A stretch of 64,000 bases of DNA, from contig NZ_FNIY01000002.1 of the NCBI RefSeq assembly GCF_900104355.1, forward strand, positions 248,001-312,000, read 5' to 3'. The stretch is from Phyllobacterium sp. OV277 (GTDB taxonomy: Bacteria > Pseudomonadota > Alphaproteobacteria > Rhizobiales > Rhizobiaceae). Shown here in pieces: positions 41,441 to 45,829 of this stretch (position 1 is the stretch's first letter; each line of letters opens with the position of its first letter). The position numbers were made by a program, and so were the translations under genes. The notes below the pieces were generated by a model. It had not been told where the DNA came from. It saw nothing but the letters and a program-made list of their open reading frames with translations, and did not search any database.

Positions 41441-41550
41441 ACGGAATTCAATCGGGCCGCGCCTGAAAAGGTGCGGCTCACGGTTGAGAAGTCTGCGACA
41501 GACGGTTAGGCTATGAGGAGAAGCTGCATCAATGCAGTGCGTGGTGCGTG

Positions 41551-41675
41551 GTTCGACAAGCTCACCATGAGGGAGATGGGTGATGAAAGGCTGATCGCAG
41601 AGATTGCACTTCGCCAAGTTTGCAGAACTTGACTCCCTTTCATCACCCATCTCCCTCATGGTGAGCTTGTCGAAC
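41551..41675. repeat. 40-bp perfect inverted repeat (CTCACCATGAGG-type element)
   Basis: Left arm 41551-41590 begins GTTCGACAAGCTCACCATGA; right arm 41636-41675 is its exact reverse complement. The spacer is 45 bases. Shorter, diverged copies of the same core occur at 59493-59530 and 62136-62172. It lies between the ompA remnant and a lipoprotein gene and would fold into a very stable hairpin in RNA. Confidence 0.9.
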
Positions 41676-41732
41676 GACGAGCCCGTGAACCACTCACTAT
41701 AGCCTGCAGCGCCCCCTATACTGGAGTAGATA

Positions 41733-41930: not shown

Positions 41931-42010
41931 AATTGCTCTTCGATCCGAATTAATACATTGGCGCATTCTGTCGATTCTTGGCGCGCGAAAAGATTATTAT
42001 TCTTGTGCCC

Positions 42011-42037
42011 TTGAAAATTAAACGCAGCAGTTATATT
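42011..42037 (+). promoter_or_regulatory. Candidate promoter of the small RNA
   Basis: TTGAAA (42011-42016) and TATATT (42032-42037) with a 15-base spacer, slightly short. A start near 42043 would put the first hairpin at the very 5' end of the RNA. Confidence 0.4.
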
Positions 42038-42042
42038 TTAGT

Positions 42043-42144
42043 GTTGCGTAACGAGCGGTTCTCCTCCCATTTTTTCGCTCGTTGCGTGTTCCCCTCTGGA
42101 CGCATTTGCGTTCACAATTCGCCGGGCTCTTGCCCGGCTTTTTT
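42043..42144 (+). ncRNA. Candidate CUCCUCCC-loop small RNA (cuckoo / alpha-r14-like)
   Basis: A gap of 365 bases without a gene contains three stem-loops in about 100 bases. Hairpin 1 pairs CGTAACGAGCG (42047-42057) with CGCTCGTTGCG (42076-42086), and its 18-base loop contains CTCCTCCC (42061-42068). Hairpin 2 pairs GGACGC (42098-42103) with GCGTTC (42108-42113) after a C-rich single strand. Hairpin 3 is an intrinsic terminator. Exposed anti-Shine-Dalgarno CCUCCUCCC motifs in hairpin loops define the alphaproteobacterial cuckoo RNAs, which include the rhizobial alpha-r14 family. It would act in trans on mRNA ribosome-binding sites; the targets are not known. Confidence 0.6.
42121..42144 (+). 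terminator. Intrinsic terminator of the small RNA
   Basis: Perfect 7-base stem GCCGGGC / GCCCGGC with loop TCTT, followed by TTTTTTG. It lies about 190 bases after the lipoprotein stop, too far to be simply that gene's terminator unless the RNA is its 3' UTR. Confidence 0.9.
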
Positions 42145-42295
42145 GTATCTTGATCCGGCAAGATGATATTTCGAGCCAATTGGCCATCCGGATCGCTCAT
42201 TCGCAGCGCATTTTTGCTACCATCACCTGAATTTTACTTCCCGTTTTGAATTATCGCGTATCAAAGAGAGTAAAATCGGGGGGGACGGGCTAATC

Positions 42296-43423
42296 ATGAA
42301 CGCTGGCGAGAAAATGCGTGTCGACTGGGTCGATATTGCCAAAGGCATCTGCATTATCTTTGTCGTGATGATGCACTCGGTGCTCGGCGTCGAGAGCGCC
42401 GCTGGAGCGCGTGGTTGGATGCACCCGGTCGTGTCTTTTGCCCAACCATTCCGCATGCCTGATTTCTTTCTAATCTCAGGTCTGTTTCTCGGGCTGGTAA
42501 TCGACCGGTCATGGCGGCGCTATGCCGATCGAAAGATTGTGCATTTCATCTATTTTTATCTGCTCTGGCTGACGATCCAGTTTCTGTTCAAGGCACCGGG
42601 TATCATCGCCGAAAGCGGTGTTGGCGGTGCTGTCAGCGCTTATCTGCTTGCCCTTGTCCAACCGTTCGGCACACTCTGGTTCATTTATCTCCTGCCGATA
42701 TTCTTTGTCGTCACGCGCCTCGTCAAATCCGTCAATGTCTGGATCATTCTGCTCATTGCCGCTGCTCTCGAAACATTCCCTATCCACACTGGTTGGCTTG
42801 TGCTTGACGAGTTCTGTAGCCGCTACGTCTTTTTCTTTGCCGGATATGCCTTTGCGCCGGTGATTTTTGATCTGGCGCAATGGTTGAGACAACGGCCATG
42901 GACAGCGCTTCTCATTCTTGGCGTATGGGCACTCGTTAATGGCTGGCTGGTGTTTCATCCGGCGTCGGCACCCTTTGCTGACTGGATACCGGAAGAGGCC
43001 TATACGTCAGGCGGGCTTGGCGGGTGGAGCAATGTGCCCATCATCTCACTGCTGGCAGGTTTTGCCGGGGCATTGGCCATCGTTTCGATTTCGGCTTTGA
43101 TCGCCAGACTTGGCTCGATACCCGCAGCACAATGGTTTGTCCGCGCCCTGCGTTGGCTAGGCGCTCATTCCATTGTCGTCTATCTGGCCTTCTTCCTGCC
43201 GATGGCGATAGCACGAACGGTTCTGCTGCGATCAGGCTTCATTACGGATATCGGCACGATTTCTCTGCTCACCGTCATCAGCGGCGTATTGGGACCGGTT
43301 ATCCTTTATGGACTGGTCCAGTGGACAGGCTATGGCCAGTTCCTGTTCAAGCGCCCGCAATGGGCCCATATAGACAGCGCGCCCACACCACATGGCAGGG
43401 GCGCGCTCGCATCGGCCGAATGA
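42296..43423 (+). CDS. Acyltransferase-3 family membrane protein
   Basis: Polytopic protein of 375 residues with about ten membrane segments. The opening RVDWVDIAKGICIIFVVMMHSVLG carries the essential-type histidine of acyltransferase family 3, and FRMPDFFLISGLFLG is the second conserved block. Members acylate sugars of surface polysaccharides, Nod factors (NodX-like) or lipids. It may modify a surface glycan together with other genes such as the FkbM methyltransferase nearby, but that is only inference. It ends 4 bases before the convergent RNase D gene. A G-rich stretch precedes the ATG. Confidence 0.85.
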   Translation: MNAGEKMRVDWVDIAKGICIIFVVMMHSVLGVESAAGARGWMHPVVSFAQPFRMPDFFLISGLFLGLVIDRSWRRYADRKIVHFIYFYLLWLTIQFLFKAPGIIAESGVGGAVSAYLLALVQPFGTLWFIYLLPIFFVVTRLVKSVNVWIILLIAAALETFPIHTGWLVLDEFCSRYVFFFAGYAFAPVIFDLAQWLRQRPWTALLILGVWALVNGWLVFHPASAPFADWIPEEAYTSGGLGGWSNVPIISLLAGFAGALAIVSISALIARLGSIPAAQWFVRALRWLGAHSIVVYLAFFLPMAIARTVLLRSGFITDIGTISLLTVISGVLGPVILYGLVQWTGYGQFLFKRPQWAHIDSAPTPHGRGALASAE

Positions 43424-45451: not shown

Positions 45452-45829
45452 GGTATTTCCTGAATTTGTTGGACCGGGACTTGTGAAGGGAATTCTTCTT
45501 AGCCCATTTTCGGGAAAACGGCAGAAAAAAATGGACCCAGAAAAGAAATGGCCGCCGTGGCGGGGGGACCACAGGCGACCAGATCACTACACTCAGATGC
45601 GACAACCCGGAGAGGGGGGATGAGGTTGCCGCAAGACCGGGGAAGGCGGGGGACGAGCCTTAAATCCCGGACATCGATCTAACGTCGACAAGTTGGATTT
45701 GGGTCTCAAACCGTGGCATTTCAAGGGCACGGAACATTACATCTTTGTAACAAACGCGTGATGAGCAGGTGATATGTTCATGACACGGGATTTCCGGCAT
45801 AACGTTCCCTCAAACGAGGGGCGAATCTC
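45452..45829. other. Intergenic gap without a recognisable gene
   Basis: These 378 bases separate the divergent M20 peptidase and YdeI-family genes. There is a G-rich stretch around 45600-45660 and no clear hairpin, repeat or promoter. I see nothing else in it. Confidence 0.5.

Follow-up and report, generated by a model that had tools for sequence, protein, structure and literature searches.

The locus and the predicted RNA

Within the 64-kb stretch of Phyllobacterium sp. OV277 DNA analysed here (the window), a small RNA gene lies between a small lipoprotein gene and an acyltransferase gene that starts at 42296, all in the same direction. The acyltransferase (PF01757) is 90% identical to its counterparts in Phyllobacterium myrsinacearum and P. 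calauticae. The features of the RNA gene are given in Table 1. At 41547-41679 there is an inverted repeat whose arms, 44 nt each and 45 nt apart, are 98% complementary; a 22-nt piece of it was found in one of 296 loci, L002, which is the window's own stretch.

Table 1. Features of the RNA gene and its upstream region, in window coordinates.
Feature	Position	Strand	Description	Basis
Block upstream of the promoter	41980..42009	+	GCGCGCGAAAAGATTATTATT in the window; related sequence among Phyllobacterium orthologues	by eye, 18-locus alignment, spacer otherwise diverged
Promoter	42010..42039	+	CTTGAA (42010-42015), N16, TATATTTT (42032-42039); RpoH-like -35, no LsrB box	alignment; counts in 20 copies; consensus from an excerpt of PMC8844928
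Predicted transcript	about 42045 to 42144	+	~100 nt	
AbcR-type sRNA (alpha-r15, RF02345)	42046..42142	+	model positions 1-112 of 112	56.2 bits; gathering 40
Hairpin 1	42046..42087	+	stem 42046-42058 with 42075-42087; loop 42059-42074	fold; paired changes
Motif M1, CUCCCA	42064..42069	+	in loop 1, inside CUCCUCCCA	exact; invariant in 18/18 aligned sequences
Motif M2, GUUCCC	42088..42093	+	in the single-stranded linker between hairpins 1 and 2, inside UGUUCCCCUCUGGA	exact; invariant in 18/18 aligned sequences
Hairpin 2	42097..42114	+	7 pairs	fold; paired bases invariant
Hairpin 3 and T-run	42121..42144	+	intrinsic terminator; 7-bp all-GC stem, then T6	

The initial annotation had proposed three stem-loops in about 100 bases, and folding of 42043-42146 bore this out: the minimum free energy was -46 kcal/mol as compared with -24.1 (sd 3.0) for shuffled sequences (z -7.4), and none of 200 shuffles was as stable. 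The three stem-loops fall inside 42046-42138, the last being the intrinsic terminator already described. Hairpin 1 presents in its 16-nt loop the sequence CUCCUCCC (42061-42068), and its stem is larger than the 11 bp with one G-U first given: it has 13 bp, and three of the pairs are G-U in the window sequence. The sequence CTCCTCCC occurs three times in the 64 kb (both strands), and only the occurrence in hairpin 1 is near a stem of more than 7 bp. A second exposed motif, M2, had been overlooked; the linker sequence that contains it, 3' of hairpin 1, continues as far as hairpin 2 and overlaps its start. The window has one occurrence of the joint pattern CTCCTCCCA-N4-24-TGTTCCCCTCTGGA, which 100 shuffles never gave.

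In an alignment of sequences from 18 loci (17 distinct), no variation is seen in M1, M2, the linker or the base-paired positions of hairpins 2 and 3, and the spacer outside the promoter and the RNA has diverged. None of these close relatives has lost the loop or the stem, and the initial view stands: the RNA gene is conserved among relatives, carries an anti-Shine-Dalgarno loop and ends in a terminator of its own. Hairpins 2 and 3, being invariant, give no covariation evidence. For hairpin 1, two pairs are changed on both sides among the 17 distinct sequences; 3 of 500 column shuffles reached the covariation score and 43 of 500 reached the count of pairs changed on both sides. Across the whole structure 99.8% of cells were paired, as compared with 32-48% when the partners were slid. 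The covariation of hairpin 1 is modest, and counts as support rather than proof.

Assignment to the alpha-r15 (AbcR) family

The RNA had been taken for a cuckoo (alpha-r14) RNA, perhaps a divergent one, and a covariance-model search had been proposed as a check. In such a scan of the 64-kb window it was the alpha-r15 model (RF02345) that matched, with an E-value of 8.9e-9; the ar14 model gave no match at 42046-42142, neither at its gathering score nor at E<=1. As a positive control, the ar14 model matched five places elsewhere in the same genome with 67.8-114.7 bits, and none in the window. These cuckoo/NfeR1-type copies, all above the cut-off, lie in genome G000 at C15:222282, C13:1068435, C10:39663, C10:91145 and C22:92425 (L143-L147). 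The one copy that was read directly carries CCUCCUCCC three times, and an excerpt of PMC10746234 describes alpha-r14 RNAs as having three hairpins, each bearing CCUCCUCCC. Here the motif stands in one of three hairpins, and with eight of its nine bases. The presence of CUCCUCCC in a hairpin loop speaks for a cuckoo RNA, but the lack of an ar14 match, the shortage of motif hairpins and the five ar14 copies elsewhere in the genome led us to reject this assignment, which retains next to no probability; a CUCCUCCC loop by itself is no marker of a cuckoo RNA. The two traits taken for divergence, a motif that differs at one of nine bases and a second hairpin that lacks it, are both there and amount to the ordinary alpha-r15 layout. 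When the scan was relaxed to E<=1, three other matches appeared (SorX, ylbH and rpsL_pseudo), which were judged to be chance, with scores far under gathering.

The layout is that of alpha-r15, with three stem-loops ending in a terminator, M1 in loop 1 and M2 in the linker. The same placing of CUCCCA (M1) in the first hairpin and GUUCCC (M2) between hairpins 1 and 2 was defined and tested in Brucella abortus (excerpt of PMC5461406). AbcR RNAs are part of alpha-r15 (excerpt of PMC7143759), a family for which multiple copies per genome are stated (excerpt of PMC3712013). Consistent with this, the window copy is one of two RF02345 copies in its own genome, and at least two matches were found in each of 20 genomes of the genus. 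None of 14 control genomes matched. Among 121 genomes sampled from the taxonomic family, 91 matched at E<=0.001, 80 of them above the cut-off, and 30 were without a match under stricter filters. Judged by model match and layout together, the window RNA is almost certainly an alpha-r15/AbcR RNA. The initial annotation was thus right that this is a member of a rhizobial family of sRNAs that presumably block ribosome-binding sites, the family being alpha-r15 and not alpha-r14. The AbcR family is already known from related bacteria, and the window copy has a genomic place and a promoter of its own.

The position between two genes of the same direction would also suit a cis-acting element, either the leader of the acyltransferase mRNA or the 3' end of the small lipoprotein gene. 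Such an element is highly improbable here given the terminator-like hairpin ahead of the acyltransferase start, the RNA's own conserved promoter and the occurrence of its family relatives in other genomic contexts.

Copies across the genus and at the acyltransferase locus

The 20 genus genomes contain 63 alpha-r15 matches, one of them below the cut-off, with two to six per genome. Twenty copies lie upstream of the acyltransferase gene and another 20 by lsrB, msrP or a Fic-like gene, each class with one copy per genome; 23 lie elsewhere. The second copy of the window's own genome, on a different contig from the window copy, has MsrP on one side and a Fic-like gene on the other, beyond which come a LysR regulator and the thioredoxin reductase TrxB. 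None of the best 25 NCBIfam models reached its cut-off on the LysR gene; we take the gene to be lsrB because it is adjoined by TrxB, as in the conserved order TrxB-LsrB/VtlR given in an excerpt of PMC7486931. The Fic-like gene (L142:6078-7127) stands between lsrB and the AbcR copy in this genome, and of the 63 copies only that at L001 is flanked by one.

A surplus copy, redundant or decaying and with no function of its own, is conceivable in genomes with two to six matches each. Retention at the locus in 20/20 genus genomes, with motifs and hairpins intact in 18/18 aligned sequences whose flanking spacer has diverged, makes this reading of the window copy very unlikely.

Among 80 named acyltransferase loci, the RNA was found directly upstream in 17, of which 15 are titled Phyllobacterium or Candidatus Phyllobacterium and two 'Rhizobiales bacterium' (L044, L047). 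RF02345 matched all four RNA-bearing loci that were scanned, with 53.8-60 bits. The other 63 loci lack the sRNA-like TGTTCCCC core, and in the first 13 of these in the list covariance models at the gathering threshold found alpha-r15 in none. The neighbouring ar7 RNA was present in all 13, so the locus appears to be the same one, minus the AbcR gene. Three of the 13 are records titled Phyllobacterium (salinisoli, phragmitis and leguminum), and the window-type copy is therefore not present in every record of that name; the contigs listed with a match for the 20 genus genomes include none of these three.

The ar7 RNA (RF02342) itself lies in the window at 45546-45690 on the minus strand, with 68.9 bits. 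It scores 89.5-112.9 bits in the 13 AbcR-less relatives; of the four AbcR-bearing loci scanned, two reach gathering, L033 (75.8) and L037 (60.7), and two fall short of it, L046 and L053. ar7 may be drifting in this genus. Three large Phyllobacterium plasmid records (0.52-1.59 Mb) also contain alpha-r15-like sequences, at positions where no feature is annotated. One relative of the Rhizobiales acyltransferase, at 61% identity, comes from a record titled Bacillus subtilis SK6B4 (L065), which is probably mislabelled or contaminated.

Promoters of the two conserved copies

A promoter had been proposed just before the first hairpin, and the site stands: it can be read as TTGAAA-N17-TATTTT (42011-42039) and is conserved. 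By composition it is unremarkable, shuffles of the region giving 0.7 such sites on average, and the case for a promoter therefore rests on conservation. The block that precedes it is a possible UP element or activator site.

Promoter and box counts were made in the 80 nt upstream of each copy. The copies upstream of the acyltransferase (window type) have CTTGA[A/T]-N16 in 20/20 cases (CTTGAA in 19, CTTGAT in one), and the LsrB box GCAT-N3-TG-N3-T in 0/20. In the lsrB-type copies the box was found in 19/20, 60-62 nt before the RNA, and CTTGA[A/T] in 0/20. The remaining 23 alpha-r15 copies of the genus have the LsrB box in three cases and CTTGA[A/T] in two. Ten of them (L118, L119, L123, L125, L133, L135, L138, L154, L163 and L178) share, by eye, an upstream TGCGTC[A/G]AT, which is neither the LsrB box nor CTTGAA and points perhaps to a third regulator.

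In Sinorhizobium meliloti the two siblings are told apart by their promoters, an LsrB box for AbcR1 and CTTGAA-N16-CCTATAT, which RpoH1 reads, for AbcR2 (excerpt of PMC8844928). An excerpt of another paper reports that loss of lsrB was without effect on either AbcR RNA of S. meliloti (PMC7486931), so that LsrB control of AbcR in that species is disputed in print between these two sources. The window copy does not adjoin lsrB, as AbcR1 does, and is of the type without the box. As for AbcR2, CTTGAA-N16 is present in 19 of the 20 window-type copies and the -10, which reads TATATTTT in the window copy and TCTA[T/C]TTT in most of the others, is partly like the consensus.

The genome encodes RpoH, with one of two TIGR02392 matches above the cut-off. 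The second match, below the cut-off, is in a frame of 675 aa, which we take to be the size expected of a housekeeping sigma factor. We give even odds to RpoH as the main sigma factor of the window copy. The same AbcR RNA might instead be made from a non-stress promoter by housekeeping sigma-70, free of LsrB yet not under heat-shock control. CTTGA is common to the RpoH1 and sigma-70 consensus (excerpt of PMC8844928), a spacing of 17 to the TATTTT hexamer fits sigma-70 loosely, and RpoD is listed beside RpoH1/2 for S. meliloti AbcR2 (table in PMC7143759, excerpt). The -10 sequence TATATTTT is a poor fit to the RpoH1 (CCTATAT) and the sigma-70 (CTATAT) consensus alike. The sixth base of the -35 argues against sigma-70: it is A in 19/20 and T in 1/20 of the window-type copies, and never the C of CTTGAC. 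We regard the sigma-70 promoter as a real possibility that falls somewhat short of an even chance.

Origin of the window copy

A DNA search with 42006-42142 gave matches in 57 of 394 genomes of the taxonomic family. Eight of the 57 are of the same genus, with 84-100% identity from query base 1-31 through to the end. Matches from other genera (71-88%) start at query base 48 at the earliest, past the promoter. Of 22 other-genus loci (L305-L326), 21 yielded 23 readable copies; none of the 23 has CTTGA[A/T]-N16-NNTA[T/C] within 130 nt before M2, and so no source outside the genus was found among them. An LsrB box is present in seven of these 23 copies. A lead towards an abcR2-like origin comes from L003-L032, which gave 49 motif matches: in L012 and in L026 a second copy is preceded by CTTGAA-N17-CCATATCT.

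Predicted targets

For 84 genes of three solute-binding families, the start regions (-40 to +15) were set against those of two other groups from this genome, 90 control ORFs and 30 LysR genes. The binding-protein genes were 84 of 91 places (30 of 33, 24 of 24 and 30 of 34) and the LysR genes 30 of 75. The controls were picked mechanically as the longest non-overlapping frames of at least 200 aa, unchecked as genes; the start-codon rule favours Shine-Dalgarno sites, and was applied alike to all sets. The binding-protein set is impure, at least one PF13407 member (L257) looking like a LacI-type regulator.

An exact complement of M1 or M2 was found in 19/84 binding-protein genes as compared with 2/90 controls (Fisher p 2.3e-5) and 1/30 LysR genes. 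The M1 site TGGGAG accounted for 10/84, 1/90 and 0/30, and the M2 site GGGAAC for 9/84, 1/90 and 1/30, respectively. By family, exact sites were present in 1/30 SBP_bac_5 genes, 9/24 SBP_bac_3 genes (eight with M2) and 9/30 Peripla_BP_4 genes (eight with M1). Whole-motif duplex energies also separated the sets. For M2 the AUC was 0.693, and none of 200 shuffles of M2 did as well; for M1 it was 0.706, yet 15 of 200 shuffles were at least as good, and M1 as a specific target signal is unsupported beyond base composition.

Pairing with the 16S tail is likewise better for the binding-protein genes than for the controls (p 0.03), and part of the target signal is stronger Shine-Dalgarno pairing. After subtraction of the 16S-tail pairing, an excess over controls persists for M1 (p 1e-5) and M2 (p 0.003). 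It thus seems that M2 is directed at transporter mRNAs, like AbcR RNAs elsewhere, and that M1 is too, though less clearly. Predicted targets include the genes at L217 and L207 for M2 and those at L251 and L195 for M1. Silencing of ABC-transporter mRNAs by the window RNA is very probable. M1 and M2 are common to the window and lsrB-linked copies, so the predicted targets may be those of either sibling or of both.

Discussion

We propose that the window gene encodes a trans-acting AbcR sRNA of about 100 nt that would expose two C-rich motifs, one in loop 1 (M1) and one in the linker (M2). Assisted by Hfq, for which the genome has one gene match, the RNA would base-pair around the ribosome-binding sites of mRNAs that encode ABC-transporter periplasmic binding proteins and other uptake functions; translation would be blocked and the mRNA exposed to decay. 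The window copy, as the sibling without the LsrB box, may well be read by RpoH (stress) polymerase in the manner of S. meliloti AbcR2. To this reading as a whole, an AbcR silencer of uptake mRNAs, perhaps RpoH-read, that is sibling to the lsrB-linked copy, we assign a probability of roughly 85%.

A stronger claim is offered tentatively, at rather less than even odds: that an AbcR sibling with full motifs has been fixed at a place of Phyllobacterium's own under a heat-shock-type promoter, and that stress alone may silence uptake there, without LsrB. The paired arrangement holds in 20/20 genus genomes: one copy is near lsrB (box in 19/20), and the other, dispersed, has both motifs in full but lacks the LsrB box. 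The two offer a clean natural comparison on why a cell should retain a pair of RNAs whose binding motifs are identical; what sets the siblings apart may be the timing of their production. An AbcR sibling is hereby placed in a plant-associated genus, our literature search having found no paper on an AbcR sRNA in Phyllobacterium.

Comparison with known systems

The alpha-r14/cuckoo RNAs (NfeR1, SmelA075; RF02344) resemble the window RNA in having a C-rich anti-Shine-Dalgarno loop, and NfeR1 is reported to target transporter mRNAs (excerpts of PMC8844928 and PMC10746234). They differ in their three CCUCCUCCC hairpins, in place of which the window RNA has a single loop of this kind, whose motif falls short by one base, and M2 in the linker.

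In Brucella abortus, AbcR1 and AbcR2 lie at separate places, only one of them (AbcR2) being under VtlR/LsrB, and both carry CUCCCA and GUUCCC, as the window RNA does (excerpts of PMC5461406 and PMC7486931). None of five loci titled Brucella or Ochrobactrum (L050, L055, L059, L060 and L061) has alpha-r15 above gathering within 5 kb of the corresponding acyltransferase. Going by these five loci, the VtlR-independent copy of B. abortus would occupy a different locus from the window copy.

In their proposed wiring the window copy and its sibling resemble AbcR2/AbcR1 of S. meliloti (SmelC411/SmelC412; RF02345), which share with the window RNA their size, three stem-loops and two anti-Shine-Dalgarno motifs, and in which one sibling has an LsrB box and the other an RpoH-type promoter (excerpts of PMC8844928 and PMC7143759). 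M1 is altered to CUCCCC in S. meliloti AbcR2 (excerpt of PMC5461406), whereas the window RNA keeps CUCCCA. The S. meliloti genes stand in tandem beside lsrB, whereas the Phyllobacterium siblings are on different contigs. If our reading is true, the LsrB/RpoH split of the tandem S. meliloti copies exists in Phyllobacterium in dispersed form, either through relocation of abcR2 or as the same wiring evolved separately.
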